This document shows positions 6,964 through 42,346 of a stretch of DNA of 64,000 nucleotides, in pieces; the first letter of the stretch is position 1; each line of letters opens with the position of its first letter. The notes below the pieces were generated by a model. The model was not told the DNA's origin. It did not search any database and worked only from the letters and a program-made list of their open reading frames with translations. This DNA is from Vicinamibacterales bacterium (lineage in GTDB: Bacteria > Acidobacteriota > Vicinamibacteria > Vicinamibacterales > Fen-181). Position numbers and translations under genes: made by a program. Where the stretch lies: contig DASXVO010000037.1 in NCBI GenBank assembly GCA_036504215.1, forward strand, positions 1 through 64,000. Reading direction: 5' to 3'.

Positions 6964-6979
6964 CGGCATTCGACTTGCA
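6964..6979 (+). promoter_or_regulatory. Candidate sigma-54 promoter for beta-helix gene
   Basis: CGGCATTCGACTTGCA fits the -24/-12 pattern: GG at 6965-6966, ten bases, GC at 6977-6978. The -12 half (TTGCA) is perfect and the -24 half differs from TGGCAC at two positions. It lies about 105 bp upstream of the ATG at 7084. GG-N10-GC occurs by chance in GC-rich DNA, so this single site is weak alone. Confidence 0.4.
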
Positions 6980-14618: not shown

Positions 14619-16165
14619 CGCGGTCTGGCTCCGGCTCCAACGAAGTCGCGCGCCGCAGGCAGCAACTGCGACGCGAACGATTGCAGGAGCGCGCGGGCCT
14701 TGTCGGGGGGAGGAACCAGCGGGCCGTCGAGCGTCAGGGCGACGACCGCGCCGTTCGAGCGGCGATGGAACACCGAGTTCCACAGCGTGACGAGCTTCGC
14801 TCGGTACACGTCCCCCACGACGGTTCCGCCCAGGTCGTACCACCCGATAACGTACCGTTGGCCGCCCGTTGGGGAGGTCTCTTCATAGCCGCTGGCGTGC
14901 ACGCCGCCACCATCGGCGGTCTGCAGCACGACCCGGCGGGCAGAATCCGGCAGCGCGATCCCACCGAATCCCATGATCTTGCGACGCTCCTGCTGGACGG
15001 CGAAGTACGCAATGTACACCAGGATACGCCGCCCGGGCGCGCGGTACTCTCGGCAAAACTCGACGTCGGGCCTGGCCGCGCGAATCGGAGCGGCGTTCAG
15101 ATCTGCCTCGCCCAACCGCCACTCGCCGATCGCCTCCGGCCACCAACGGGCGTCAGCCAGCGCCACGGGCCGGGGATCGGCGTAGGGCACGAGGATCGCG
15201 GCAACTGAGAGCAGGCCGATGCCGAGGACAACGGGTGTCCAGCGAGGTGCTGCCGCGGCCACGGCGGGCAACCTCGTCACCCCTACATCCGGTGCGGGAG
15301 CATCCGGCTCACGCATGAGTCTGGCACCCACGAAGAGAGCGACGTACCCGGCCACGGCCACGAACATGCCCTGTAGGGTGTGATAGGGGCCATGCAGGTC
15401 CTCCGGGCCGGAGAGCTGGTAGTACTGGAGTGCGCCGATGAACGCGACGCGCGCGCCGTTGCTCAGGATCGCCACGACGACAGCGAAGGAGATGACGGCG
15501 ACACGGCGGGTCATGCGAGACAGCGAGAGGTACGAGTAAGGAATCGCGATTGCCACAACGGATATGAGATAGTTGACGCCGCTGCAGGCTCTGGCTACCT
15601 CGAGGGTGATGTTCGGCAATTGCAGTACCTTATCGTTGAGGTAGGCGGGGACGCCCATCGCGCCCATCAACGCCAGGCCGATTCGCGCCGAGATTTGCTG
15701 GAAGGGCTCGTGGAGACGGTCTGTGAAGATGTCCCACACTGGCACCGCGAGCGTCAGGTAGAGCAGCGGGAGCAGAACCGTCCGAAGCGCCCTTCGCCCG
15801 GCAGAGAGCGCGATGAGGCCGCCGAGCGCAGGGACGATCGACAGCGGCTGCAGGACGGCGAAGCTGCCAGCCTGGCCGACGAGCAGAGCTGAGAGGCTCA
15901 GGGCCAGCATCGGCAGGCCGAGCAGGTAATCCGGCGCACCCACGGACGCCACGACGCGTTTTCGCTCCATCCAGACGATATACACGGAGATGAACGGAAT
16001 CAGGAACCCGTACGAATAGAAGTCGTCCGTGTACCATCTACTCACGAGAATCCGAATCGCGCCACCATAGGCTGCAGAGAACGCGACGGCTGTCGCGAGG
16101 AGGCCCGCCGCGACGCGCAGGGGCAAAGGCCGCCAGGGGTTCTGGGTCACGACAACGGAGGTCAT
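14615..16165 (-). CDS. xrtA: Exosortase fused to EpsI-type domain
   Basis: A 516-residue membrane protein combining an exosortase with a C-terminal EpsI (DUF3485) domain, the architecture of exosortase A. Eight or so hydrophobic segments lie between 15 and 285. The catalytic residues are 'ARACSGVNYL' with Cys194, 'LSNGARVAFIGAL' with Arg239, and 'HGPYHTLQG' with His262. The EpsI part (about 320-510) contains 'WRLGEADLN', 'VEFCREY', 'GWYDLGGTVVGDVYRAKL'. Exosortases cleave PEP-CTERM proteins at the membrane and are thought to attach them to an exported polymer. Stop and start overlap both neighbours as ATGA. Seven PEP-CTERM substrates lie within the next 30 kb. Assignment to subgroup A rests on the EpsI fusion and neighbours. 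Confidence 0.92.
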   Translation of the reverse strand: MTSVVVTQNPWRPLPLRVAAGLLATAVAFSAAYGGAIRILVSRWYTDDFYSYGFLIPFISVYIVWMERKRVVASVGAPDYLLGLPMLALSLSALLVGQAGSFAVLQPLSIVPALGGLIALSAGRRALRTVLLPLLYLTLAVPVWDIFTDRLHEPFQQISARIGLALMGAMGVPAYLNDKVLQLPNITLEVARACSGVNYLISVVAIAIPYSYLSLSRMTRRVAVISFAVVVAILSNGARVAFIGALQYYQLSGPEDLHGPYHTLQGMFVAVAGYVALFVGARLMREPDAPAPDVGVTRLPAVAAAAPRWTPVVLGIGLLSVAAILVPYADPRPVALADARWWPEAIGEWRLGEADLNAAPIRAARPDVEFCREYRAPGRRILVYIAYFAVQQERRKIMGFGGIALPDSARRVVLQTADGGGVHASGYEETSPTGGQRYVIGWYDLGGTVVGDVYRAKLVTLWNSVFHRRSNGAVVALTLDGPLVPPPDKARALLQSFASQLLPAARDFVGAGARPR

Positions 16166-24095: not shown

Positions 24096-24111
24096 AGCAT
24101 AAGGTGTGCCG
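24096..24111 (-). promoter_or_regulatory. Sigma-54 -24/-12 promoter for PEP-CTERM gene A
   Basis: Read on the - strand: CGGCACACCTTATGCT, with GG, ten bases, then GC. It matches TGGCAC-N5-TTGCT at 9 of 11 fixed positions. Its downstream edge is about 65 bp from the GTG at 24031. Confidence 0.6.
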
Positions 24112-24283
24112 TTGGAATGGCTGATGGATATTACCCGTGCAGCAACCGTAACCTACACGCGGATATGTTGTTAGGTGGCGTCAGAACAGCGATTTAAGGG
24201 ACAGACATGGAGGACAAAGTCTGCCCCTGGAGAGAGAAAAGACCACATTCCACTAGGCCGCAGGTAATTCGCCGTGGGCACCG

Positions 24284-26557
24284 CTACTGGAGGGATGCCA
24301 GCGTCTTCCTGGCTTCCGCCGCGCCCTCGAAGTCGGCGCCGAGCTTCAGCGCCTGCTGCAGCGAGGCCCGGGCCAGCGTCCAGTTGTGCGCCCCAAGGTA
24401 GGCCATCCCGAGGTGGTAGTGATAGGCGGCCTTGCCGGGCGCCGCAGCCACAGCTTGTTCGAGAGGCCCCACGGCCAGGTCGCGCATCCCTTTCTTGTGG
24501 TAGATCCACCCCAACGTATCGTTCACTTCGGGCGAGTCGGGGAGTGCGGCCTTGGCGGCCTGTGCCAACTGCAGCGCCTGATCCAGGTTGCCACCGCCGT
24601 TCGCGTAGAGCCACGCCAGGTTGTTGGCCGCTGCTGCCGCGTGGGGATCGATCGACAGCGCTTTCTGGTAGCGTTGCTGCGCCTCGGCCGACCGACCTAG
24701 AACCTCCAGCAGGAACCCCGCCATGGTGTGCGCGGCGGCAGATGAAGGCTGCTGCTGAGACAGGCGCTCGGTCTCGGCGAGCGCCTTGTCGACGCGCTTC
24801 TGCTGGTAGTAGATCCGGCCGAGCGCCATGTAGCCCTCGAGGCCGCCAGGATCGGCGGCGATGAGCGCCCTCCACGTCTCTTCGGCCTTCGCCGTCGCGC
24901 CCACCGCGTCGTACACCCGCCCGGCCATTGCCAGGGCCGTGGCGTCCTGCGGTGTCGCGGTTAGCCTCACCTCCACGCGGCGCCGCGCCTCGGCCTGCCT
25001 GCCGGCCTCCATGTCGAGGCTGATGAGGCCCGAGAGCGCCTCGTCATCGCGTGGATTCAGCTTGAGCGCCTGCTCGAAGGCCTTGCGAGCCACGTCGCGC
25101 TCCTGCCCGGCGAGCGCCACCTGACCGGCAAGCGTCTGTACCCGCGGCACGCCGCCGTACTGGGCCAGAAGCGGCGTCAGCGCCACCCGGGCCCGCTCGC
25201 GATCGCCGCGGGCGATCAGCGTCCGCACCAGGACATACCGCGCGTCGGCGTTCTGGGGCATGCTCCTCACGGCTTCGTCCGCGAATTGCACGGCCCGCTC
25301 GGCCTGGCCCATGGCCAGATCGATCCGGGCGATTTCGAGCGACGCCGGGCCGAAGCGCGGGCTGAGGCGCAGCGCCTCCTGAAACGCCTGACGGGCCTCG
25401 TCCGGTGCCCGACGGGCCAGTTGGATGCTGCCGACGGCGAAATGCGCGCGGCCCAACCGCGGCGCCGCCTTGACGGCCGCCTGTGCCAGCGTCAGCGCCT
25501 GGTCGGCCTTGCCGTCGGTCAAAAGCAGCGCGGCCTTCACGAGCATCGGCTGCGGATTCCGCGCGTCTGCCGCAATCACCTTCTCGATCCGGGCGTAGGC
25601 GGCTGGCTGCTGGCCGTGCGAGTACTCGTACTGCACGAGGCGCAGCATGGCGGGCGTGTAGCCGTCCTTCTGCTGGGCGACGGTTTCGAGCAGTTTCAAC
25701 CCCTCGTCCGTTCGTTTCACGCCCAGGTAGTAATCGGCCAGGGCGAGGCGCGGGGCGATGATTGTCGGGTTGGCGTCGGCGACGGTCTTCAGCGGGGTCT
25801 CGGCTTCGGCCAGCCGGCCGGTCGCGACGAAAAGCGCAGCCAGCGTACGGTTGGCCAGCACGTGCCTGGCGTCGATCGCCACGGCTTCCTTCAGGAGTTT
25901 CTCGGCTTCCGGCATGCGCTGGAGCGACCAGTACATGTTCGCCAGCCCGATGCGTGCCTCGATCGACTGCGGTGCCACCGTCAGCGCGCTGCGGAACGCC
26001 TCTTCGGCCTTGGATATGTCGCCGTGCGCCAGTTCGAGGGCGGCGAGGTTCGAGTAGATCGCCGCGTTGGCCGGCTCGGCCCGGATGGTCGCCTCCACCT
26101 GGCTCGCGGCGGCATCGAACTGGTTCAGTCCGGCGAGCGCGTTGGCCAATACCAACTGCGCGTCCACGTTCCGCACGTTCTTGTCGAGCACGCGCTCGGC
26201 CGCGTGGCGCGCCTCGTCGAACTTGCCGGCAAACAGGAAGTACTGGCCGGCCTTCACCTGGATGTCCTTCCGGTCCGGCGCCATGTCCGACGCCAGGCTC
26301 AACTCGCGCAACGCGTCGGCGCGGTTGCCGATGGCCTCGTACGCGAGGCCGAGCCTGTAGTGCGCTTCGGCGAACCTGGAGTCGAACTGGAGCGCCTTGC
26401 GGTACTCGATGGTGGCCTCGGCGAACTTCTTCTGGCCCGCCCAGGCATTCCCGCGGTCGAGCGCCTTCTGCTTCTCGACCTCTGGATCCTGCCGGCACCC
26501 GGCCAGCAGCATGGCCGCGACGACGAGGGCCCATGAGACACGATGGCGATGGAGCAT
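24284..26557 (-). CDS. prsT: PrsT-like TPR lipoprotein, copy 1
   Basis: A 757-residue TPR protein with a lipobox 'AMLLAGC' and Cys21 as the lipidation site. About 20 tandem TPR motifs (34 residues each, e.g. 'AEAHYRLGLAYEAIGNRADA' and 'AAANNLAWLYANGGGNLDQA') fill the rest. It resembles the PEP-CTERM system TPR-repeat lipoprotein PrsT (TIGR02917 type), thought to act in envelope assembly or export of the polymer. It lies 28 bases downstream of a second copy in the same orientation. Its distal repeats are very close to those of the paralogue, suggesting tandem duplication. It is predicted to be outer-membrane anchored, but the retention signal was not tested. Confidence 0.85.
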   Translation of the reverse strand: MLHRHRVSWALVVAAMLLAGCRQDPEVEKQKALDRGNAWAGQKKFAEATIEYRKALQFDSRFAEAHYRLGLAYEAIGNRADALRELSLASDMAPDRKDIQVKAGQYFLFAGKFDEARHAAERVLDKNVRNVDAQLVLANALAGLNQFDAAASQVEATIRAEPANAAIYSNLAALELAHGDISKAEEAFRSALTVAPQSIEARIGLANMYWSLQRMPEAEKLLKEAVAIDARHVLANRTLAALFVATGRLAEAETPLKTVADANPTIIAPRLALADYYLGVKRTDEGLKLLETVAQQKDGYTPAMLRLVQYEYSHGQQPAAYARIEKVIAADARNPQPMLVKAALLLTDGKADQALTLAQAAVKAAPRLGRAHFAVGSIQLARRAPDEARQAFQEALRLSPRFGPASLEIARIDLAMGQAERAVQFADEAVRSMPQNADARYVLVRTLIARGDRERARVALTPLLAQYGGVPRVQTLAGQVALAGQERDVARKAFEQALKLNPRDDEALSGLISLDMEAGRQAEARRRVEVRLTATPQDATALAMAGRVYDAVGATAKAEETWRALIAADPGGLEGYMALGRIYYQQKRVDKALAETERLSQQQPSSAAAHTMAGFLLEVLGRSAEAQQRYQKALSIDPHAAAAANNLAWLYANGGGNLDQALQLAQAAKAALPDSPEVNDTLGWIYHKKGMRDLAVGPLEQAVAAAPGKAAYHYHLGMAYLGAHNWTLARASLQQALKLGADFEGAAEARKTLASLQ

Positions 26558-26585
26558 AGAGCGGTCCTCGAAATGCCTGCCTGGA

Positions 26586-28841
26586 CTACTTGAGCGTGGC
26601 CAGCGTCTTTTGCGCCTCGGCCGCGCCGTCGAAGTTCGGATCGATGGAGAGCGCCTTCTCGAGCGACTGTCTCGCCTTGGCCGAGTCGCCCGTCTTTACC
26701 AAAAGCATGCCCAGGTGGTAGTGGTACGAGGCGTTGGTCGGCGTCTTCTCGATCGCCTGTTGCAGCGGACCGAACGCGAGGCCGGGCAGGTTCTTCTTGT
26801 AGTAGATCCAGCCGAGCGTGTCGTTCACCTCCGGGGCGTCGGGGAGGCCGGCTTTCGCGGTCTGCGCGAGCTGCAGTGCCATCTCGAGGCTGCCGCCCGA
26901 TTCGGCGTACATCCAGGCCAGGTTGTTGGCCGCCACCGGGGCCCGCGCGTCGATGGTCATCACCTTCTCGTACTGCTTCTGCGCCTCGGCGCTCTTTCCC
27001 TGCATCTGCAGGATCATCCCCACCATCGTCTCGGCGGCGACGGGCTTCGGCTGGAGCCTGGCCAGCTCGGCGAACTTCTCCTTGGCCTGATCCAGCTTCT
27101 TCTGGGAGAGATAGAGCTGTGCGAGGACGCCGTAGGCCTGGAGGTTCTCGGGCGCGATCTCGAGCGCCTTGAGCAGCGTCTGCTCGGCCTTGGGCAGGTC
27201 GCCCCCGGTCGCGTAGGTGCGCGCCGCCAGGATTAGCACGTTCACATCGGCCGGCGTACGCGTCAAGCGCGCCTCGACACGGCCGCGGGCATCGGGAAGA
27301 CGCTTCGCCGCGACATCGAGCGTGACGAGGCCGACCAACGCCTCGAATGAATTCGGATCGAGCTTCAACGCCTGCTCGAACGACTTCCGGGCCCCGACCT
27401 GGTCCTTCTTCACCATCTGCAGCGAGCCGAGGCTGGCGACAACCGGCGCGGCCTGCGGGTACTTGGCCACGAGCGCCTTGATCTCCGTTTCGGCGCGCGT
27501 CAAGTCCCCCTTGACCATCAGCGCGCGCGCCAGCATCAGGCGCGCCAGCGGGTTCTCAGGACTCGTCGTGACGGCCTGCTCGGCGAACTGGAGCGCGGGA
27601 TCGGCGGAGCCCCTCGACATCTGGAGCCGAGAGAGTTGCAATTGGGCGGCCACGGCTCCCGGGTTCAGCTTCAGCACCTCGTTGAACGCCTTGATCGCCT
27701 CGTCCGTATTGTTCTTCTGCGCGTAGAGCTGTCCGAGGAGGTACTGGGCCGGCGCCGAGCGCGGGTCCGCGGCCGCGGCCGCCTTCACGCGCGCCAGCGC
27801 CTCGTCCACCTTCTTCTCCTGCAGGAGGAACCGGGCCTTGACGAGCATCGCGGGCGCGCTCTTCGGGTTGCTGGTCAGGACCTCGTCGATCGTCTTGTGC
27901 GCCTCGGTCTGCTTGTTCTGCGCGTACTGGATGCCGGCGAGCCGCGTCTTCGCGTCCACGTAGGCGTCCTTGTTGGACGCAACCTTGTTGAGGAGGGCAA
28001 CGGCCTCGTCCACGCGGTTGAGCCCGAGGTAGTAGTCGGCCAGCGACAGCGTTGGCCCCGGTTCCTTCGAGTTGTCGGAGATGGCCTTGAGGTACGGCTC
28101 CGCCTCGGGCGCGCGGTTCGACGCGATGTAGAAGGCGGCCAGTGCGCGGCCGGCGTTCGGATTCTTCGGGTCGATCTGGTGCGCCTGCTTGAACGAGGTT
28201 TCCGCCTCGGCCTGCCGGCCGGTGGTGAACAGGAAGTTGCCAAGCAGGAGATGGGCGATCGCGGACTTGGGGTCGATGTCCACGGCCTGCCGGAAGGCCT
28301 TTTCGGCGGCTTCGATGTTCCCTTTCTTCTGTTGCAGCGAGCCCAGGCTGGCGTAGGCGCCGCCGGATTTCGGGTCGAGCCGCAGCGCCTCCTCGAACTG
28401 CCCGATGGCCGTGTCCACGTCCTGCTTGGCGGCACTTACCGAGGCCAGCAGGAGCTGCGCCTGCAGGTTCTTCGGGTTCTTGGCGAGCACCTTGTCCGCG
28501 CGGGCCTTGGCGTCTTCGAGGCGCCTCGCCAACAGCAACAGGTCGCCGGCTCTCAATTGCGCGTCCAGGTTGTCGGGCAGGAGGTCCGCCGCGTTGACAT
28601 ATTCGCGAAGGGCGCAGCGGATGTCGCCGATGCGCACGCAGCTCTCGGCCAGCTTGAGGTGCGCCTCACCGAGCTTGGGGTCCTTCTGGATCGCGTTGCG
28701 GTACTCGATGGCGGCTTCCCGGAACTTCTGCTGGCCGAAGTAGGCGTTGCCGGAATCGACGTACTGCCGGGCGCTCTTCGAGCAGCCGGCCGCCAGGACG
28801 ACCACCAGTGCCGCGACCGCGACGAACTTGAGGCGATGCAT
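26586..28841 (-). CDS. prsT: PrsT-like TPR lipoprotein, copy 2
   Basis: A 751-residue paralogue of the downstream gene. The start at 28841 gives 'MHRLKFVAVAALVVVLAAGC', a lipoprotein signal with Cys20; the frame could extend to 28907 with non-signal residues. It has about 20 TPRs, including 'AYFGQQKFREAAIEYRNAIQ' and the conserved last pair 'NLAWMYAESGGSLEMALQLA' and 'NDTLGWIYYKKNLPGLAFGP'. It starts the two-gene PrsT unit; no sigma-54 element was seen directly upstream. The upstream neighbour is the GSDH-type lipoprotein gene, 76 bases away. Confidence 0.85.
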   Translation of the reverse strand: MHRLKFVAVAALVVVLAAGCSKSARQYVDSGNAYFGQQKFREAAIEYRNAIQKDPKLGEAHLKLAESCVRIGDIRCALREYVNAADLLPDNLDAQLRAGDLLLLARRLEDAKARADKVLAKNPKNLQAQLLLASVSAAKQDVDTAIGQFEEALRLDPKSGGAYASLGSLQQKKGNIEAAEKAFRQAVDIDPKSAIAHLLLGNFLFTTGRQAEAETSFKQAHQIDPKNPNAGRALAAFYIASNRAPEAEPYLKAISDNSKEPGPTLSLADYYLGLNRVDEAVALLNKVASNKDAYVDAKTRLAGIQYAQNKQTEAHKTIDEVLTSNPKSAPAMLVKARFLLQEKKVDEALARVKAAAAADPRSAPAQYLLGQLYAQKNNTDEAIKAFNEVLKLNPGAVAAQLQLSRLQMSRGSADPALQFAEQAVTTSPENPLARLMLARALMVKGDLTRAETEIKALVAKYPQAAPVVASLGSLQMVKKDQVGARKSFEQALKLDPNSFEALVGLVTLDVAAKRLPDARGRVEARLTRTPADVNVLILAARTYATGGDLPKAEQTLLKALEIAPENLQAYGVLAQLYLSQKKLDQAKEKFAELARLQPKPVAAETMVGMILQMQGKSAEAQKQYEKVMTIDARAPVAANNLAWMYAESGGSLEMALQLAQTAKAGLPDAPEVNDTLGWIYYKKNLPGLAFGPLQQAIEKTPTNASYHYHLGMLLVKTGDSAKARQSLEKALSIDPNFDGAAEAQKTLATLK

Positions 28842-28917
28842 TTCTGAACTCCTCGGTGCAGGCCGAAAATGGGAGCCCCGCGGCGCTCGGCGGGCAGAGC
28901 TCGACACACGTCCTCTC

Positions 28918-30657: not shown

Positions 30658-31314
30658 CTACTTCTTGGCGCGACGGCGAGCGGCGGCCGCGAGGCCGATC
30701 AGGCCCGTGCCGAGGAGCATCAGGGAGCCTGGCTCCGGGACCAGCGTCAGCATGTCCTGGACGCGGTTGGGATCGCCATATACGCTCGAATCGAAACCCA
30801 GGACCCGCACGTTGCCGATTCCGGACCACTTGCCGGCGGCGATCGCGGCGTCCGCATCTGTGACGAGAGAGTTGATTCCGCCGGGCGGGTTCTGCCCCTG
30901 GAAGTACCAGATGGCGTGCTGGTACGCATTCGCCGTGGCGTCATCCAATACGTTCCCGCTGCCCGGGTAATACAACTCCCGGAACTGCGTGTAAAGGAAC
31001 GCCGCCCCTGCCGACAGCGGAAGCGGACCGGCGAGCGTCGGGTACCCTGTATTCCCGTTGATGGAGACGGTGTCCAGCCGGGTGACGGTATACGGGCTGC
31101 CTGGATAGAAGACTTCCTTGTCCTCGATGCAGAACGTGAGGAACTCGTAGCCCGTCCCGACGACCAGGAACGACCCACCCTGATCCGCGCCGCCAGTCGA
31201 CTGGTAGACTCTGACGACGTCGCCTACCGAGATGGGATCGAGCAACGGCCCCGCGGTGGCGCTGGCCATCGGCAAGAGTGCCAGCAGCGCGAGGATGAGA
31301 ATGAGTTTCTTCAT
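30658..31314 (-). CDS. PEP-CTERM sorted protein B
   Basis: A 218-residue exported protein starting at ATG 31314 with GGAGGG 12 bases upstream. The signal peptide is about 1-20 ('MKKLILILALLALLPMASA'). The mature domain has 'YEFLTFCIEDKEVF' and 'NAYQHAIWYFQG', found in small acidobacterial PEP-CTERM proteins of unknown function. The tail has 'VPEPGSLMLLGTGLIGLAAA' followed by 'RRRAKK'. Its upstream leader and sigma-54 promoter (31420-31435) are shared with the next two genes. It may be a matrix or cell-surface structural protein; no catalytic signature is visible. Confidence 0.88.
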   Translation of the reverse strand: MKKLILILALLALLPMASATAGPLLDPISVGDVVRVYQSTGGADQGGSFLVVGTGYEFLTFCIEDKEVFYPGSPYTVTRLDTVSINGNTGYPTLAGPLPLSAGAAFLYTQFRELYYPGSGNVLDDATANAYQHAIWYFQGQNPPGGINSLVTDADAAIAAGKWSGIGNVRVLGFDSSVYGDPNRVQDMLTLVPEPGSLMLLGTGLIGLAAAARRRAKK

Positions 31315-31419: not shown

Positions 31420-31435
31420 AGCAATTGATGTACCT
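31420..31435 (-). promoter_or_regulatory. Sigma-54 promoter for PEP-CTERM gene B
   Basis: AGGTACATCAATTGCT on the - strand: GG, ten bases, GC, with a perfect TTGCT -12 half and one mismatch in GGCAC. It lies 106 bp upstream of the ATG at 31314, in the same relative place as in genes C and D. Confidence 0.7.
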
Positions 31436-31606
31436 CTGCGTGAGCGGCCTCACGACCGGCACGGCTGCGCAGCTAAGACATTGCAAACTAACGTTTTGGA
31501 CCCGTAGTCCCACGCGCGGTGAGAGTAGCGAAGTCACTCTGCAGGATGACTTCTTTCGGCGTAAGCGGGAAGTAGGATGAATCGCAGGAGCGGGGATCGA
31601 GGAGCG

Positions 31607-31646
31607 GAAAAACAACGAGGGCACGGAGAAGGACCCCGTGCCCTCG
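31607..31646 (-). terminator. Terminator after PEP-CTERM gene C
   Basis: An 11-bp stem (CGAGGGCACGG with CCGTGCCCTCG, loop about 9 bases) followed on the - strand by TTGTTTTT. It sits 30 bases past the stop of gene C. Confidence 0.85.
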
Positions 31647-31675
31647 CGATGTCAGGCGGCTTGGCAGACGTCCAA

Positions 31676-32365
31676 CTACTTCTTGACGCGACGACGCACC
31701 GCGGCGGCCAGGCCGATCAGGCCGGTGCCGAGCAGCAGCATGGAACCCGGCTCAGGAACCTGTGGGCCCATGAAGCCCTGGACCTCGGTACCCGCCGTCG
31801 TGCCCGCTGCCGGATAGAAGAGCCTGAAGTAGGAGGCGTCCGCCGCGGCCACCGCGTTGGCATTGGTCAGCGCGAGCAAGTAGCTGTTTGCATGGTCCAC
31901 CAAGGCGCCGGAGCCGTTCACGTACACTGAGCCCGCGCCAGACGTGACGCTGGTGTCGGTGTCCCAAACGGCATTCCAAATTGCAATCCCAAGAGCGCCA
32001 CGATCGATCCCAGCATGGTTCGCGTAGGTGTTATAGAGGAGCGCAGCCCGTTTGCCCGCGTCCGCCGCGAAACCGAAATTGCTGGGGAACGTCGCCCAGT
32101 CGTTGGCCATGCTGAGCGGACCCTCGTAGCGGTACGTGTTGGGCAGGTTGTCGATGTTCAGATCGGACACGCAGTACGCGTCGAACTTCCAGCCGTTGAT
32201 GTCGAACGGTACGGCACCGATCCGAACGCCGCCATTGTAGAAACTAGCCAGGTGGACACTTGCAACTCCGTCGGTCCAGAAGCCGGCGTTCACAATGCCG
32301 TCGGCGCGGGCGCTCGCCGCAGGGACCAGCGCCAGCACGGCGAGGAGAATGAGAAGTCTCTTCAT
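31676..32365 (-). CDS. PEP-CTERM sorted protein C
   Basis: A 229-residue exported protein, ATG 32365 with GGAGGG 12 bases upstream. Signal peptide 'MKRLLILLAVLALVPAASARA' (cleavage near ARA). The mature part begins 'DGIVNAGFWTDG' and contains 'FDAYCVSDLNI', 'MANDWATFPSNFG', 'AIWNAVWDTD'. The C-terminus is 'VPEPGSMLLLGTGLIGLAAA' and 'RRRVKK'. It is a close paralogue of gene D (same length, same motif order), so the two are tandem duplicates. Function is unknown; it is probably surface-displayed after exosortase processing. Confidence 0.88.
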   Translation of the reverse strand: MKRLLILLAVLALVPAASARADGIVNAGFWTDGVASVHLASFYNGGVRIGAVPFDINGWKFDAYCVSDLNIDNLPNTYRYEGPLSMANDWATFPSNFGFAADAGKRAALLYNTYANHAGIDRGALGIAIWNAVWDTDTSVTSGAGSVYVNGSGALVDHANSYLLALTNANAVAAADASYFRLFYPAAGTTAGTEVQGFMGPQVPEPGSMLLLGTGLIGLAAAVRRRVKK

Positions 32366-32377
32366 GCGTAACCCTCC

Positions 32378-32393
32378 GTCGCCTTCTGGCGAC
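32378..32393 (-). promoter_or_regulatory. Conserved leader stem-loop before SD, gene C
   Basis: GTCGCCAGAAGGCGAC on the - strand; the loop changes GGAA to AGAA while the six-bp stem is preserved, followed by GGAGGG. Confidence 0.55.
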
Positions 32394-32472
32394 TCGAATT
32401 GAAATGAAGCGAGAGGCGGCGGACTCGAGTGAGTGCCAAGCCGGCCTGAGGACCACCAGACACCAGGAGCAA

Positions 32473-32488
32473 AGCAATTGATGTGCCT
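32473..32488 (-). promoter_or_regulatory. Sigma-54 promoter for PEP-CTERM gene C
   Basis: AGGCACATCAATTGCT on the - strand. It is identical to the consensus TGGCAC-N5-TTGCT except for the first base. 108 bp from the ATG at 32365. Confidence 0.75.
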
Positions 32489-32669
32489 CCTCGTGCGGGG
32501 CTTCACAACCGGTACGGTTGGGCAGTTAAGGCACTGCACAATAACGTCTTAAACCGGCTGCCCGAGGCGCGGCAGGGATTACGAAGTCAGTCTCCAGGGC
32601 GACTTCTGTCGGCGCAGGCTGGAAGTTAAGGTGAATCGCGGCCGCAGGGTTGAAGGACCGTGTGAACAC

Positions 32670-32701
32670 CGAGGGCACGAGGAGTTCTCCCCGTGCCCTC
32701 G
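32670..32701 (-). terminator. Hairpin after PEP-CTERM gene D
   Basis: A 10-bp stem (CGAGGGCACG with CGTGCCCTCG) past the stop of gene D. It lacks a U-tract on the - strand, so termination is less certain than for gene C. Confidence 0.55.
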
Positions 32702-32730
32702 TGAAGTCAGGCGGCTTGGCAGACGTTCAA

Positions 32731-33420
32731 CTACTTCTTGGCGCGACGACGCACTGCGGCGCCAAGCCCAATCAGGCCGGTGCCGAGCAGCAGCATGGAA
32801 CCCGGCTCGGGAACCTGGGGTCCCATGAAGCCCTGGTACTCGGTTCTCCTGTCGTTCAGGTTGTAGATCTGATAGTAGGCGGCGTCCGCCGAGAGGACGT
32901 CGTTCGCGCCGGCATTCTGAAGCGCCGTCAGATAGCCATTCGCGACGGCGATGCGGCCCGAGCCGGCGTTGCGGATGTAGACACTGCCTGCCAGATTGCT
33001 CACGCTGAAGTCGTTGTCGAATACCGCGTTCCAGATGGCGATCTGAAGGGCTTCCTTATTGACGCCAGGCATGGTCGCGAAGTTGTTGTAGAGCCATGCG
33101 CCCTGATGGCCCTGCAGGGCCGTTCCCGCGGGCACCTGGTGACCCGGCCAGTCCGTCGCCATGCTGCCTGGCCCCGTGTACCAGAAATCCGCGCCGCCGC
33201 CGAGCGAGATGTTCAGGTCGGAGACGCAGTACGCGTCGAAGGTCAACGTGCCGATCCGTGCGGGGACCGTGCCGACGTAGACGCCACCGGCATAGCCCGG
33301 CAACGCCATGTCTTCGACGCCACCGGGCGTCCATCCCCCGAGATGAATGATGCCGTCCGCCCGGGCACTGGCGGCCGGCACGAGCGCCAGGATCGCGAGA
33401 ATGAGAATGAGTTTCTTCAT
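32731..33420 (-). CDS. PEP-CTERM sorted protein D
   Basis: A 229-residue paralogue of gene C. ATG 33420 follows GGAGGG, and the signal peptide is 'MKKLILILAILALVPAASARA'. The mature part begins 'DGIIHLGGWTPGGVED' and contains 'FDAYCVSDLNISL', 'MATDWPGHQVPAG' and 'AIWNAVFDNDFSVS'. The tail is 'VPEPGSMLLLGTGLIGLGAA' then 'RRRAKK'. The conserved Cys in 'AYCVSDLN' is shared with gene C. Divergence is concentrated in the loop after 'AYCVSDLN'. No enzyme motif is evident. Confidence 0.88.
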   Translation of the reverse strand: MKKLILILAILALVPAASARADGIIHLGGWTPGGVEDMALPGYAGGVYVGTVPARIGTLTFDAYCVSDLNISLGGGADFWYTGPGSMATDWPGHQVPAGTALQGHQGAWLYNNFATMPGVNKEALQIAIWNAVFDNDFSVSNLAGSVYIRNAGSGRIAVANGYLTALQNAGANDVLSADAAYYQIYNLNDRRTEYQGFMGPQVPEPGSMLLLGTGLIGLGAAVRRRAKK

Positions 33421-33432
33421 CTGTAACCCTCC

Positions 33433-33448
33433 GTCGCCTTCCGGCGAC
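33433..33448 (-). promoter_or_regulatory. Conserved leader stem-loop before SD, gene D
   Basis: GTCGCCGGAAGGCGAC on the - strand, identical to the gene B element, directly followed by GGAGGG. Confidence 0.55.
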
Positions 33449-33527
33449 TCGTTGGAGTAAAGCGAGAGGCGGCGGACTCGAGAGCGAGTGCCAAGCCAGC
33501 CTGAACACCACCCGACGCCAGGACTTC

Positions 33528-33543
33528 AGCAATTGACGTGCCT
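33528..33543 (-). promoter_or_regulatory. Sigma-54 promoter for PEP-CTERM gene D
   Basis: AGGCACGTCAATTGCT on the - strand: GG, ten bases, GC, 108 bp upstream of the ATG at 33420. The spacing to the start equals that of gene C. Confidence 0.75.
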
Positions 33544-33756
33544 CGCTCGCGGCGCTCGACGACGAGGGTCATAATGGCTTCAAGACATTGTGTCTAAATG
33601 GTTTGTTAGGCGATCACGCGATTTGCATGGCGGAACAAGGTCGCCCATGGGGCAGACTTATATCGCCATGGTTCAATTATGGTTGACTCGTTGGGCCCGA
33701 TCCGCTGGCCACGGCTGGAAGTGAGCGGCCGCCAAAGGGTGCCGCGACCGTACACG

Positions 33757-33785
33757 AAAAACGGAGGACCCCGTGAGGTCCTCCG
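33757..33785 (-). terminator. Terminator after PEP-CTERM gene E
   Basis: Stem CGGAGGACC with GGTCCTCCG (nine bp, six-base loop), followed on the - strand by GTTTTTCG. It lies 40 bases past the gene's stop. Confidence 0.85.
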
Positions 33786-33825
33786 CCTTCAAAAGTCCAC
33801 GTTCGCGTGAGGCGCCGGGCGATTG

Positions 33826-34497
33826 CTACCGGCGTGTCCGACGCCGCACCGCTCCGGCGAGGCCGATCAGGCCGACGCCGAACAGCATCAGCGAGGCCGG
33901 CTCCGGAACCTGGCCCGGAATCACGAAGTCCTGGCCGCCGACGCCAGAGCCCGGAAAGTCGAGCCAGATTGCGTTTTCGTGCTGGTTGGCGCTCAGGCTG
34001 GCCCAGGTCGATGCGTTCGTCCTGATGTCGTTGCTCACCGAGAACCACGTCGGGTCCAGGCGGGGATAGAGAACCATCCACAGCGCCACCTGCAGCGTCG
34101 CCGCATCCTCGTTGGTCTGCACCAGCGGGGCGTAGTGATTCGCCAGCCACGCCGCGTGGGGGCCGGTGCCTGCGGCCACGTACGGCGGGTTCCCGGCCGT
34201 CGGGAGGTCCGACATGAAGCGGCGCTCGACGTTCCAGCCGGACGGCGCGTTGAAGTCGGTGAAGAGGTCCACGCAGTAGCCCAGGTACTCGTGGTTGTTC
34301 CAGTCGATCCGGATTTCGCCCACGTAGAAGTTGCCGTTGAGCGCCGGCAGCACGACCTGATCCCCGTCCTTGACCTGCGGGATGTTGATTCCGGCTACCA
34401 CGCGCCGCCCCATGCCCGGGACGTAGATTGAATCAGCTTTGGCGGCGACCGGCACCAGGCAGGCGACGATGGCAAGGATGAGAACCAGTTTCTTCAT
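33826..34497 (-). CDS. PEP-CTERM sorted protein E
   Basis: A 223-residue exported protein starting at 34497 after a GGAGG ribosome-binding site. The signal peptide is 'MKKLVLILAIVACLVPVAAKA'. The mature part has 'YLGYCVDLFTDFNAPSGWNV' and 'ATLQVALWMVLYPRLDPTWF', resembling the acidobacterial thioester-like or 'cysteine peptidase-like' surface proteins, but this is not conclusive. The tail is 'VPEPASLMLFGVGLIGLAGA' then 'RRRTRR'. The tandem neighbours share this motif order only loosely, so it is a distant relative. It has the best sigma-54 promoter of the window. Confidence 0.85.
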   Translation of the reverse strand: MKKLVLILAIVACLVPVAAKADSIYVPGMGRRVVAGINIPQVKDGDQVVLPALNGNFYVGEIRIDWNNHEYLGYCVDLFTDFNAPSGWNVERRFMSDLPTAGNPPYVAAGTGPHAAWLANHYAPLVQTNEDAATLQVALWMVLYPRLDPTWFSVSNDIRTNASTWASLSANQHENAIWLDFPGSGVGGQDFVIPGQVPEPASLMLFGVGLIGLAGAVRRRTRR

Positions 34498-34565
34498 GAC
34501 GTCGGGCCTCCAGGTCGTCTGTGACGACCAACAGCACATCCGCAACACCGAATGCTCATCCATAT

Positions 34566-34581
34566 AGCAACGGTTGTGCCA
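34566..34581 (-). promoter_or_regulatory. Sigma-54 promoter for PEP-CTERM gene E (consensus match)
   Basis: TGGCACAACCGTTGCT on the - strand matches TGGCAC-N5-TTGCT at every fixed position. It lies 69 bp upstream of the ATG at 34497. The region is locally AT-rich (34600-34650), as is common upstream of sigma-54 promoters. Confidence 0.85.
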
Positions 34582-34759
34582 GGCTGCAATGAAGGCGCTC
34601 GACTTAGAGTAAGCTATTGATAATGAGTATCTTATATCATTAGTGCATGTCGTGGATGGATCCAGGCGATGACAGAAGGCTGCGCGAGAGATACCTTTTG
34701 TCGCTGAAGTGAAAATATGGCGGACTTCTGAGGCCGCGGACGCGGCGTCTCGGCTGGAT

Positions 34760-36619
34760 CTACTTGAGCTTGGCCCTCAGCGCCTTCACCTCCTCACGCC
34801 CCTCGAGCGCCGCGTCGAGGCGCACCGCCTCCGCGAGCGCCGCCGCCGACCGGTCGAGCATCCCCAGCGCGCCAAACACGACCGCCGCATGGAACTGCAC
34901 CTCCGCGTGATCCGCCGCCTTCGGCAGCAACTGGGACAGTAGTCTCCCCGCATCCTCGTCGCGCCCGCAGAGATGCTGCACCCACGCGAGCGTATCGACC
35001 ACATTCAGATTCCCTGGCGCCAGCGCGTACGCCCGCTCGGCATACGCCAGTGCGTCGGCCGGCTGTTTCTTGCGCACCGCCAGGGCGAACGCGAGGTTGT
35101 TGAGCGAAATCGCCTCGTTGGGCCTGCCCGCCACCACCTTCCGGTAGGTCTCGATCGCCTTGTCGTACTCGCCGCCCTCGTCGTACAGCGTGCCAAGCAG
35201 GACCTGCGCCGTGACCAGGCGGGGATCGAGGACGGTCGCCTGTTCGAGCGCCATCCGCGCGCCCGGCTTGTCATCCTTGGCCAGCCGCACCTCCGCCCGG
35301 AGGAAGCTGCGGGCGGCGTCCGGCTTCACCGCCGATGCGGCAATAGTCTGCAGGCGGCGGGCCGAAAACAGGGCCGGCAGCTCGGTGGTCGCGTCGATGC
35401 CCTTGTCGATGTCCGTGGGCTGCAGGGCCTGGCGCGGGAAAGGCGTGCAGAGGGGGTCGCCAACGACGACCGTCTGCCAGCCGAGATACGGCATGGCCAG
35501 ATAGAACGATTCGGCCAGGTTGAACCCGGAGAAGTACGCGGGGAACAGGACGTTCGGCCGGATCGTCGCGTCGAGGTACGGTTCCGCCACGTGCCCCGCG
35601 ATGCCGGTCACGCCGTCGCGAATCAGATCGCCCGCCAGCGACTGGGGCGAGTCCGCGAAGAACGTCTTCCGATCGGTCCACGTGCCGATCTTCCACTCCG
35701 CGGGGGGCTCGCGAAATGTTCGCGCGTCCGTGCTGACAAACGTCGCAGCAATCGCGCCCGGGACGAACTCGATCCCAAGGTGCCGGGCCGTAATCGACGG
35801 GTCACCCGATCCCCACGAGTAGTACCCCAGCACGTCCTTCTCGCTCGTGAGCACGCGGCTCGTCGTCTCGAGCACGGTCCGATCGCCGAAGCCACGTGCG
35901 GCCATCCAGTCCGCTGTCGCGCGCAGCCACTGATTTCCGCCGGCGTCACCGAATCCGGCCTTCTGATCGAGGAGAACCCGGCCGGTGCTCACCGGCGCGA
36001 TCGCTCGATCGATCAACCCCTTGACGTCCTCGAACGTGTAGCCGTCGAGCCTGGTGACCAGGAAGATATCGAACGACTGGTGGCTGAAGAGCCTCGCCTG
36101 GGCGACCGGAGCGTCTCCCAGGTAATAGGGGTTGGCCACACGGCCCACCACTGGGACCAACGTGCCCGTCAGCTTCCGGTAGAGCAGCGCCAACTCGGAA
36201 TCAACGCTCGCCATCGTACCGTCGCGGCCCGCCGTGCCCTTGATTCGAAGCGGCACGCCCTTGGTGAGCACGATATAGAGGATGCGGTCGACGGCGCTGT
36301 TCCGCTGCAGCCATTTGGCCAGGGGTGTTTCGATCTGTGTCTCGAAGATGCCGCGCTCGACCTCGTCGGCGGCGTCGGTTCGAATGCGGCAGACCTGGCT
36401 CTGCGGCACATGTCGGCGCCCGGCGTAGTACTCGCCGACACGCACGGAATCTGGCGAGGACTCGTTGACGACCAGCAGCACGTTGTCCGCGGTCTGGGCC
36501 GCGGCGAGCCAGGGGAGCAGCAGCAGGACGATCGCAACAGCCCCCGTGCGGGCGTGTCGGCGAATTGAGGTTGGAGTGGGAAGCGGCCGGGGACGACGGG
36601 GCGAAGGGATGGGCGGCAT
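34760..36619 (-). CDS. TIGR03790-like protein with C-terminal TPRs
   Basis: A 619-residue protein. After a signal peptide or N-terminal anchor (about 20-45, 'AVAIVLLLLPWLAAAQ'), residues about 50-430 match the TIGR03790 family ('NVLLVVNESSPDSVRVGEYYAGRRHVPQ', here seen as 'NVLLVVNESSPDS' and 'VGEYYAGRRHVP', plus 'ILYIVLTKGVPLRIKGT' and 'GYYSWGSGDPSITARHLG'). The family is common in planctomycetes and acidobacteria and is of unknown function. Residues about 450-619 contain four TPRs ('VTAQVLLGTLYDEGGEYDKA', 'ISLNNLAFALAVRKKQPADA'). The TPR appendix is unusual for the family and may connect it to the PrsT proteins. The start at 36619 gives the signal; the frame extends to 36706. Confidence 0.75.
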   Translation of the reverse strand: MPPIPSPRRPRPLPTPTSIRRHARTGAVAIVLLLLPWLAAAQTADNVLLVVNESSPDSVRVGEYYAGRRHVPQSQVCRIRTDAADEVERGIFETQIETPLAKWLQRNSAVDRILYIVLTKGVPLRIKGTAGRDGTMASVDSELALLYRKLTGTLVPVVGRVANPYYLGDAPVAQARLFSHQSFDIFLVTRLDGYTFEDVKGLIDRAIAPVSTGRVLLDQKAGFGDAGGNQWLRATADWMAARGFGDRTVLETTSRVLTSEKDVLGYYSWGSGDPSITARHLGIEFVPGAIAATFVSTDARTFREPPAEWKIGTWTDRKTFFADSPQSLAGDLIRDGVTGIAGHVAEPYLDATIRPNVLFPAYFSGFNLAESFYLAMPYLGWQTVVVGDPLCTPFPRQALQPTDIDKGIDATTELPALFSARRLQTIAASAVKPDAARSFLRAEVRLAKDDKPGARMALEQATVLDPRLVTAQVLLGTLYDEGGEYDKAIETYRKVVAGRPNEAISLNNLAFALAVRKKQPADALAYAERAYALAPGNLNVVDTLAWVQHLCGRDEDAGRLLSQLLPKAADHAEVQFHAAVVFGALGMLDRSAAALAEAVRLDAALEGREEVKALRAKLK

Positions 36620-36633
36620 CGGGCCAATGATAG

Positions 36634-36660
36634 CAGCACCGACCGACGAGAGCGGTGCTG
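36634..36660. promoter_or_regulatory. Hairpin between small gene and TIGR03790-like gene
   Basis: CAGCACCG and CGGTGCTG form an eight-bp stem with an 11-base loop, in the leader of the TIGR03790-like gene and just after the small upstream gene. No U-tract, so a processing or attenuation site is as likely as a terminator. Confidence 0.4.
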
Positions 36661-36677
36661 TCGGCGTGAGGAGGAGA

Positions 36678-36908
36678 TCAGGCCTTCGGGAATCGCACCT
36701 CGGCAACCGGCCCCGCCACCGGTTCGTCGTCCGCGCCTGCGGCTGCGGCGGTGTGATGGTGCTGGATCGCGCTGCCCGCGGACATCTCGATGCGGACCGA
36801 GTACGACACCGGCAGCCGGGTCAGCACGTCGTTGATGGCCGTGAGCATGACCGGCGCCAACCGGCTTTCATCTTCTGGCGTCAGCGACGAGACCAGATGG
36901 ATTTCCAT
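36678..36908 (-). CDS. Small conserved-looking hypothetical protein
   Basis: A 76-residue protein of unknown family, 'MEIHLVSSLTPEDESRLAPV' at the start. An AGGAGA ribosome-binding site precedes ATG 36908. Residues 1-50 look like a small alpha/beta domain ('LTAINDVLTRLPVSYSVRIE'); the C-terminus is His/Ala/Gly-rich. The reading frame could extend upstream to 36986, but no ribosome-binding site supports that. It is 58 bases upstream of the TIGR03790-like gene on the same strand and may be co-transcribed. I do not recognise a function. Confidence 0.55.
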   Translation of the reverse strand: MEIHLVSSLTPEDESRLAPVMLTAINDVLTRLPVSYSVRIEMSAGSAIQHHHTAAAAGADDEPVAGPVAEVRFPKA

Positions 36909-36952: not shown

Positions 36953-36968
36953 AGCAAAGCCCGTTCCG
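36953..36968 (-). promoter_or_regulatory. Weak sigma-54-like site, small hypothetical gene
   Basis: CGGAACGGGCTTTGCT on the - strand: GG, ten bases, GC, with a perfect TTGCT -12 half but only GG and the final C of GGCAC. It lies 45 bp upstream of ATG 36908. Confidence 0.35.
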
Positions 36969-37184
36969 TCGCGGCCATTGCCGCACCTGTTGAAAGATGG
37001 AGCAAAATCGACTTTCGGTCTGTATGAGTCCGAAACAAGGTGCAAAATAGATACCCTATAGTCACGGTTTTCGCGGACTCCTCGTTCGTGAGACTAGCAG
37101 TCTTTAGGTGTACCTCGGGCAGACTTTATTCGCGGCAGGCATGCCGAACCCCCGTTTGGCGGCGCTCTGAGCCACGGCGGAGCT

Positions 37185-37200
37185 TGGCACGGAAGCTGCC
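37185..37200 (+). promoter_or_regulatory. Sigma-54 promoter candidate for diguanylate cyclase
   Basis: TGGCACGGAAGCTGCC: perfect TGGCAC, GC at the -12, ten bases between. It lies 78-93 bp upstream of the GTG at 37278. Confidence 0.5.
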
Positions 37201-38426: not shown

Positions 38427-38588
38427 TCGCTCGAATTCATCCGGAACTCTCTTCTTCAAGACAAAAGTCGCCCGGGGCCGAGACTTCCAGATTCATGCAA
38501 TTGGTCAGGATGCGACACGCATCGGCGGAAGTCCTTTCAGTTGCTTGTGTTGCCGCAGCTCATCTCAGAACCGTCTCCGGATGTGAAC

Positions 38589-38604
38589 CGGCACGGATAA
38601 CGCT
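38589..38604 (+). promoter_or_regulatory. Sigma-54 promoter for PEP-CTERM genes F and G
   Basis: CGGCACGGATAACGCT: GG, ten bases, GC. GGCAC and GCT match; the first base and two of the -12 bases (AC for TT) do not. It lies about 107 bp upstream of the ATG at 38711. Confidence 0.5.
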
Positions 38605-39969: not shown

Positions 39970-40100
39970 CTATTGAGGTCCCGTAGGCCTTCCAGCCCGC
40001 GCCCTCGGTTCCGTTGACGTGGGATTCCCTCGGCGGTACACTGAATGGCTCTATTAGGCTGACTATTTTCGACCGATACGTGGAATAAGACGCTGGCGCG

Positions 40101-41267
40101 GTGGGAGAGACCCCTGCCCAGTCCAATTACCAGATGGCAACAGAGGGCGAGCAGCTTATCGGGTCCAGTTCGGCGATTGGCGAACTGCGTGCGGAGCTCG
40201 AGTACGCGGCCCGTTCCGACGCGAAGATCCTGATCACCGGCGAGAGTGGCGTCGGCAAGGAAGTCCTCGCCCGTCTGATTCACAAGCACAGCAACCGGGC
40301 GCGCGCGCAGCTCGTGACGATCAACTGCGCGGGCCTGCCCGATTCCCTCCTCGAGTCGGAGCTGTTCGGTCACGTTCGCGGGTCGTTCACCGGCGCATAC
40401 CGCGACAAGCCAGGACTCCTCGAGACGGCCAACGGCGGCACGATCTTCATGGACGAAGTGGGGGAGATGAGCCTGCGGATGCAGGCGCTCCTCCTGCGCT
40501 TCCTCGAGAGCGGAGAAATCCAGCGCGTGGGCGCCGAGCGCGCCCAGGCCCGCACGAACGTCCGCGTCGTCGCCGCCACGAACCGCAACCTCACCGAGCG
40601 CATCGCGTCGAAGGACTTTCGCGAAGATCTCTACTACCGGCTGAACGTCATCCACCTGACGATGCCGCCGCTCAGGGAACGCCGCGAGGACGTGCCGGAG
40701 CTTCTCGACTACTTCATCGACTTCTACAGCACGCGCCACACGCTGCCGGTGCCGCGCCTCGCGCCCGAAGCGCTGGCGCAGCTCGTCGCTTACAACTGGC
40801 CGGGCAACGTGCGCGAGCTGAAGAACTTCGTCGAACGCCTCGTGCTCCGCGCCCGCAGCGGTCTCATCACGCCCGCCGACCTGCCGATGGAGATCATGCC
40901 GCCGCCCCAGGTGGCCATCCGCGAGCCGGTGCGCGGCGCCGCGATCGAACGCATGTACGACCGCATGATCAACGGCCACGAGTCGTTCTGGGGTGTCGTC
41001 TACGAGCCGTTCATGGCCCGCGACATGACGCGCGACGATCTGCGCGCGATTGTCAGCCGGGGCCTGGAACAGACGCGAGGCAGCTACCGAATCCTGGTCC
41101 AGATGTTCAACATGCCGGAAGGCGACTACAAGCGCTTCCTCAACTTCCTGCGCAAGCACGACTGCCAGATGCCGTTCCAGCGGTTCAGGAGCGTCACGGT
41201 GCGGCGTGACCACGGGAATGGCGAGGATACGGTCGCCGCAAACGAGCGACGAGGGGCCGGCGTATGA
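40101..41267 (+). CDS. Sigma-54 activator AAA+ protein without receiver domain
   Basis: A 388-residue bacterial enhancer-binding protein. The AAA+ core is clear: Walker A 'GESGVGKE' (47-54), 'GSFTGA' at 94-99 in place of GAFTGA, Walker B 'FMDEVGE' (116-122), '[24 protein letters not shown]' with the sensor and Arg finger (split as 'TNRNLTERI' and '[10 protein letters not shown]'). No REC, PAS or GAF domain precedes it. The C-terminus (about 285-365, '[20 protein letters not shown]' and '[14 protein letters not shown]') is a helical DNA-binding-like segment, not a canonical Fis HTH. It would activate transcription by RpoN. GTG 40101 is the first start; ATG 40134 is an alternative. A separate receiver gene follows, overlapping by four bases. 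Confidence 0.87.
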
Positions 41268-41644
41268 CAGAGTCCAAGAAGATCCTCGTCGTCGATGACG
41301 ATCGCCAGGTCCTGCGGTATCTGACGGAAGTGCTGACCGAGGCGGGCTACGACACGACGGCCTGCGATCGGTTCCAGGATGCGAAGACGCTGCTCGCGAC
41401 GACGCGCCCCAGCCTGCTCCTGACCGACATCCGGCTCGGGGCCTACAACGGCCTGCAACTCGCCATCTTCGGACGCGACCGCCACCCGAACATCCCGATC
41501 ATCGTCCTCACCGGGTACGAGGATCCCACGCTCAGAGAAGAAGCCGCCCACTCGGGCGCGCTGTTCCTCGTGAAGCCGGTCAAGCGCGCCATTTTGCTCG
41601 CGTCCATCGAGCAGGTCCTCGGCGAAAAGCCGCCGCAGACATAA
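41264..41644 (+). CDS. Stand-alone receiver (REC) domain protein
   Basis: A 126-residue CheY-like receiver. The acidic pair 'DDD' at 11-13, phosphoacceptor Asp55 in 'LLTDIRLG', Thr83 in 'VLTGY' and Lys104 in 'LVKPV' are in place. There is no output domain. Its ATG overlaps the sigma-54 activator stop as ATGA, so both are produced together and may form a phosphorylation-regulated pair, the receiver acting in trans. No histidine kinase is in the window. Confidence 0.9.
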
Positions 41645-42117: not shown

Positions 42118-42330
42118 CGCCTGGCGCGGGCCATGTGTCGCGCCACGACCAGCCCAAGATTCCAACGTCCCGACGAGGCCGAGAACAAAAGGTACCCAAG
42201 GGCGAGACTTGTCGTGCGCAATCGGTGGGCCCGCCTGGCGTCGTCTCTCTCAGACCGTGTGACCATAAGCCTCCTATTTAACTAGATTTAGTTGGATGAG
42301 AGACCGTTCCGCGTGGTCCCACTGCTCAGG

Positions 42331-42346
42331 TGGCACGACACTGGCT
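42331..42346 (+). promoter_or_regulatory. Sigma-54 promoter for PEP-CTERM gene H
   Basis: TGGCACGACACTGGCT: perfect TGGCAC, ten bases between GG and GC, GCT at the -12. It lies 59-77 bp upstream of the start codons at 42405/42408. Confidence 0.75.

Follow-up and report, generated by a model that had tools for sequence, protein, structure and literature searches.

Putative σ54 promoters of PEP-CTERM genes

That PEP-CTERM genes, whose products are exosortase substrates, can be regulated by σ54 is already known (PMC1569441, PMC9850573). In 2006 Haft et al. described a σ54 site and an activator motif upstream of such genes and inferred a PrsK/PrsR/PrsT system; the site was found in Proteobacteria only, and the control of other PEP-CTERM genes was left open (PMC1569441). 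Binding of the regulator DVUA0057 to all five of its predicted PEP-CTERM targets has been reported (PMC3333781), and for pepA of Aquincola tertiaricarbonis both RpoN (RpoN1) dependence and a mapped start were shown in 2023 (PMC9850573). Our literature search found no description of σ54 control of PEP-CTERM genes for Acidobacteriota. Here we analyze a stretch of 64,000 nucleotides from an acidobacterial genome (Vicinamibacterales bacterium, contig DASXVO010000037.1, positions 1 to 64,000; hereafter the window) that contains a locus of exosortase W, FemAB, two PrsT-family TPR proteins and eight PEP-CTERM genes (A–H). At this locus, putative σ54 promoters precede the PEP-CTERM genes and are accompanied, farther upstream, by a shared enhancer-like dyad.

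An earlier, sequence-only reading had placed four GG-N10-GC sites upstream of genes B to E, and all four are present there, on the minus strand and in sense orientation. The site of E is, as had been claimed, an exact match to TGGCAC-N5-TTGCT; the description of the −24 and −12 halves as near-perfect holds for E and, with one mismatch each, for C and D, and is generous for B, which has two. The distances to the ATG, given earlier as 106–108 bp for the first three genes, measure 105, 107 and 107 nt for B, C and D, respectively. The predicted sites, those of A, F and the pair G–H being additions to the earlier set, are as follows:

31420–31435 (−): σ54 promoter of gene B, AGGTACATCAATTGCT, 2 mismatches, 105 nt to ATG
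32473–32488 (−): σ54 promoter of gene C, AGGCACATCAATTGCT, 1 mismatch, 107 nt to ATG
33528–33543 (−): σ54 promoter of gene D, AGGCACGTCAATTGCT, 1 mismatch, 107 nt to ATG
34566–34581 (−): σ54 promoter of gene E, TGGCACAACCGTTGCT, exact, 68 nt to ATG
24096–24111 (−): σ54 promoter of gene A, CGGCACACCTTATGCT, 2 mismatches, 65 nt to start
42331–42346 (+): σ54 promoter of gene F, TGGCACGACACTGGCT, 1 mismatch, ~59 nt to start
38589–38604 (+): degenerate σ54-like site of the pair G–H, CGGCACGGATAACGCT, 3 mismatches, ~107 nt to start

On both strands of the 64 kb, GG-N10-GC sites with one mismatch or none number just four, namely those of C, D and E and the site at 42331–42346 (+), which likewise precedes a PEP-CTERM gene (F). 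The whole genome (5.92 Mb in 90 contigs) holds 14 exact occurrences of DGGCAC-N5-TTGCW, three of which are the sites of C, D and E, and a single copy of rpoN (PF04552, one match, 221 bits). Measured against a chance background of pattern counts, relatives and shuffles, the sites of B to E are, as predicted from their sequence, −24/−12 σ54 promoters whose frequency is far above chance.

For comparison we used 60 genomes of the order Vicinamibacterales, 28 of which had usable PEP-CTERM genes; these yielded 129 upstream regions of at most 250 bp each, with start codons picked by signal-peptide features and blind to the motif. In this genome, 6 of the 12 believable PEP-CTERM genes have a sense site with at most two mismatches upstream, and all six are at this locus. 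Across the order, the same threshold gave 69 sense versus 2 antisense matches in the 129 regions, and 1 match in a control of 75.8 kb of coding body. Site-bearing genes number 68 of 129 and occur in 22 of the 28 genomes; when genomes carrying PrsK are set aside, 54 of 106 PEP-CTERM genes have a site. The expectation that the motif would be enriched at PEP-CTERM starts is thus supported by a strong sense-strand enrichment in this genome and its relatives. As for the proposal that the sorted proteins form an RpoN regulon, it fits the set around the exosortase locus (A–F, and probably G–H), though not every PEP-CTERM gene. The predicted regulon is larger than first described, since it adds A, F and, with their degenerate site, G–H; these genes are expected to depend on RpoN.

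Genes B, C and D look like tandem duplicates, with 72–78% identity between their upstream regions, an identity that favors the idea that the sites are functionless by-products of the tandem duplication of one gene together with its upstream region. However, genes E, A and F, which are spread over both strands, have diverged, and the 68 genes with sites in 22 genomes carry them almost all in the sense orientation. On the strength of the diverged genes and the relatives we rejected a duplication artefact, which we regard as extremely improbable.

A weak σ54-like site (CGGCATTCGACTTGCA, 3 mismatches) was also seen at 6964–6979 (+), ~105 bp before a secreted 558-aa protein encoded at 7084–8760.

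A putative enhancer dyad upstream of the promoters

The regions upstream of the 68 order-wide sites have in common the half-site GNCRRAAGTCDNCC, which was found in 46 of the 68 sequences versus 12.0 in Markov shuffles when each genome in turn was left out. Of 25 convergent pairs of neighboring half-sites, 17 have their centers exactly 17 apart, a spacing that gives the dyad AAGTC-N12-GACTT. Judged by its sequence, this putative enhancer is a new element, unlike motif 1 of Haft et al., the six-base end of which (TTTACA) occurred in 1 of the 68 upstream regions versus 0.92 in shuffles. For scoring dyads in the window we left this genome out of the training of the model; the best scores in four shuffled windows were 8.7–13.1, and the five top-scoring dyads of the window are those of PEP-CTERM genes B, C, D, G and E. 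The predicted elements, given without strand, are:

31525–31558: enhancer dyad, gene B, dyad score 26.6
32578–32611: enhancer dyad, gene C, dyad score 25.7
33632–33665: enhancer dyad, gene D, dyad score 22.8
34670–34703: enhancer dyad, gene E, dyad score 15.3
38459–38492: enhancer dyad, gene G, dyad score 20.5
24211–24226: enhancer half-site, gene A, half-site score 13.3, without a good second half
42183–42216: weak enhancer-like dyad, gene F, dyad score 10.5, inside the shuffled range

The distance from the dyad center to the −24 element is 105–106 bp for B to E, 114–116 bp for A and G, and 132 bp for the weak dyad of F, and the window contains 7 pairs of promoter and enhancer versus 0.3 in shuffles. 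Because a dyad of score 20.5 lies at a fitting spacing upstream of its degenerate site, gene G looks like a member of the regulon with a degraded −12 half, H being likely the second gene of the unit. Taken together with the enhancer described here, the sites are very probably functional σ54 promoters. Genome-wide, exact matches to the palindrome were also found at C1:9989 and C90:21430; both stand in a coding context where no promoter fits, and we took them for chance occurrences.

A candidate activator without a receiver domain

Receiver-less σ54 activators such as PspF consist of an AAA+ σ54 domain and a DNA-binding domain and have no N-terminal receiver. A candidate activator is encoded near the array, between PEP-CTERM genes H and F:

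40101–41267 (+): candidate activator, an AAA+ enhancer-binding protein that lacks a receiver and has a putative, divergent Fis-like domain at its C-terminus (PF00158, 221 bits)
40056–40071 (−): enhancer half-site just upstream of the activator gene, score 15.7

By our own count the genome encodes ~37 proteins with a σ54 activator domain. In the candidate the GAFTGA loop reads GSFTGA, and the half-site stands at the same place upstream of the activator gene in two further loci (L252 and L253). The C-terminal domain (~80 residues) is strongly conserved among relatives and has no Pfam match, including to any helix-turn-helix (HTH) family. AlphaFold2 (AF2) poorly modeled the full-length protein without an alignment (predicted local distance difference test, pLDDT, 41.8), so that only the model of the C-terminal domain made with an alignment was usable (pLDDT 83.7); it has six short helices, of which five precede the C-terminal turn, and these are compatible with a Fis-type DNA-binding domain. 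Profile–profile alignment matched the domain to Fis-type HTH domains carried by other activators in the genome (E 1.9e-5, probability 78); Foldseek and Protein Data Bank sequence searches with it returned nothing significant.

A stand-alone receiver-domain protein is encoded at 41265–41642 (+), overlapping the end of the activator gene. We rejected such a single-domain receiver as the input partner of the activator, since we found no homologue beside the activator in relatives.

The activator family is almost confined to records of Acidobacteriota, and its named relatives are nearly all from metagenome-assembled genomes (MAGs) of Acidobacteria or Vicinamibacterales. One contig whose title names a cyanobacterial MAG (JAIEMQ010000048, L304) has the acidobacterial activator family; the title is probably wrong. 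Of the 60 genomes compared, 32 have the family and 31 have PEP-CTERM genes; 28 have both, 4 the activator only, 3 PEP-CTERM genes only and 25 neither (p = 1.7e-9, kinship ignored); within families f2, f6, f11 and f15 the presence and absence of the two agree fully. The half-site lies upstream of 29 of 57 activator-family genes, where ~6 were expected; for 30 other activators encoded in this genome the count is 3, as expected by chance. Moreover, the 1.03 Mb surrounding activator-family genes contain 12 dyads, and shuffled sequence none. This pattern at the family's own genes looks like autoregulation and forms the main link, though an indirect one, between enhancer and protein; on balance we lean toward the receiver-less family as the activator of the regulon.

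A different possibility is that the σ54 regulon is real and is driven by a PrsR-like two-component response regulator encoded elsewhere (G000:C5:67414), the receiver-less protein serving other promoters. PrsR has this role in Proteobacteria (PMC1569441) and DVUA0057 binds its PEP-CTERM targets (PMC3333781). The PrsR model matches the protein at C5:67414 with 442 bits. This best match in the genome, however, falls short of the curated cut-off (502.6), as the best PrsK match (99 bits) does of its own (300). In addition, TTTACA is not enriched, and C5:67414 is among the 30 other activators at which the enhancer occurs at the chance rate. With neither over cut-off, we rejected PrsR and PrsK themselves as the regulator here, and we consider control by the PrsR-like protein unlikely. 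Among the 60 genomes, of which the best candidates per genome were scored, PrsK exceeds the cut-off in four.

Outside the PEP-CTERM genes, an enhancer half-site at 37117–37132 (score 15.5) lies between two divergent σ54-like sites, one at 36953–36968 (−), before a 102-aa open reading frame (ORF) and a TIGR03790/TPR gene, and the other at 37185–37200 (+), before a GAF-GGDEF (diguanylate cyclase) gene. The TIGR03790-family protein (34760–36706, −) has a C-terminal stretch that matches the PrsT model and is apparently a fusion. A half-site placed between these σ54-like sites suggests a link to cyclic di-GMP. The two pairs of enhancer and σ54-like site, the dyads with promoters around activator genes, and the four genomes that have the activator family without detected PEP-CTERM genes would all fit a regulon that is not chiefly one of PEP-CTERM genes; these would instead belong, with the activator genes, the TIGR03790/TPR gene and the diguanylate cyclase, to a wider exopolysaccharide or biofilm programme under the same activator and enhancer. 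Our systematic sampling, however, covered PEP-CTERM upstream regions only, and such a programme, to which we give somewhat less than an even chance, is compatible with the explanation we favor below and would mainly lengthen its list of targets.

Proposed regulation and its relation to known systems

The genes of the locus include the following:

14615–16165 (−): exosortase W (NF038142, 428.9 bits, cut-off 425)
24284–28907 (−): two adjacent PrsT-family TPR proteins (TIGR02917, both over the curated cut-off)
30658–31314 (−): PEP-CTERM gene B (TIGR02595 and PF07589 over cut-off)
31676–32365 (−): PEP-CTERM gene C (TIGR02595 over cut-off)
32731–33420 (−): PEP-CTERM gene D (TIGR02595 and PF07589 over cut-off)
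33826–34497 (−): PEP-CTERM gene E (TIGR02595 and PF07589 over cut-off)

Because a strong hairpin follows the stop codon of each of B to E, the genes for which this was checked, each of the four is probably a single transcription unit. As far as is visible, each PEP-CTERM gene of the locus would form its own unit, G–H being a pair, with a −24/−12 promoter 59–107 nt before the start codon and, farther upstream, an enhancer dyad centered ~105–132 bp from the −24 element. The dyad would be occupied by an enhancer-binding ATPase, most likely the 40101–41267 protein and/or its paralogue at G000:C70, whose family has the enhancer at its own genes; by looping, the bound ATPase would reach RNA polymerase–σ54 and open the promoter, which would give joint production of the exosortase substrates. 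The candidate would thereby fill the place that PrsR has in Proteobacteria. The sites, their enrichment, the dyad and its spacing, the co-occurrence, and the finding that neither PrsK nor PrsR exceeds its cut-off were all computed here, and we consider it likely that genuine RpoN promoters, the dyad and a receiver-less activator together bring about co-expression of the substrates.

Several observations weigh against this explanation. B, C and D, being apparent tandem duplicates with upstream regions as similar as noted above, cannot be counted as three separate observations (independence is greater for E, A and F), and the enhancer of gene F is weak. Four remote PEP-CTERM genes of this genome are without a site, as are 61 of the 129 in the 60-genome set, including all six in each of the genomes G012 and G042. 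The enhancer was discovered in the same 68 regions that describe it, though it was tested with held-out genomes. Finally, this genome has two or three members of the activator family, including the close paralogue at G000:C70, and a PEP-CTERM ORF is near the activator in just 5 of 75 loci (strict pattern); since such proximity is uncommon in relatives, we do not take adjacency alone as proof.

More broadly, we think it slightly favored that Vicinamibacterales have lineage-specific, autoregulated, receiver-less activators that have a divergent, Fis-like domain for DNA binding and act on AAGTC-N12-GACTT, in parallel to PrsK/PrsR and with targets beyond PEP-CTERM genes, such as the diguanylate cyclase. 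The question left by Haft et al. receives a specific, testable answer for one soil lineage: its PEP-CTERM genes would be controlled through σ54 promoters and a defined enhancer, with one named protein as the candidate activator. What is new is the shared enhancer dyad, a genome in which neither PrsK nor PrsR exceeds the cut-off, and a candidate activator beside the array. These findings suggest that placing exosortase substrates under σ54 is an arrangement that recurs with different activators; the surface-protein genes of a soil acidobacterium probably use an enhancer-plus-σ54 switch as in Proteobacteria, with another enhancer sequence and a different activator.

In its organization the locus resembles the system of Haft et al. 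in having single-gene PEP-CTERM units with long upstream regions, a −24/−12 site preceded at a distance by an activator motif, and PrsT-family proteins (here two over cut-off), and the share of genes with a site is similar (99 of 167 there, 68 of 129 here). It differs in belonging to Acidobacteriota rather than Proteobacteria, in having neither PrsK nor PrsR over cut-off, and in having a different enhancer that lies farther away (dyad center 105–132 bp from the −24 element in the window, versus a mean spacer of 62.8 nt). The system would run like the PrsK/PrsR type and yet we do not count it as a member, because the end of motif 1 is not enriched and neither PrsK nor PrsR exceeds its cut-off. 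With pepA of Aquincola it shares a PEP-CTERM gene with TGGCAC as the −24 element; Aquincola, however, is a proteobacterium with prsK–prsR in which RpoN dependence was shown, whereas here we infer it from sequence. The candidate activator, like PspF, has an AAA+ σ54 domain and no N-terminal receiver, together with a putative DNA-binding domain, but this predicted DNA-binding domain is a conserved five-helix variant of ~80 residues without a Pfam match.

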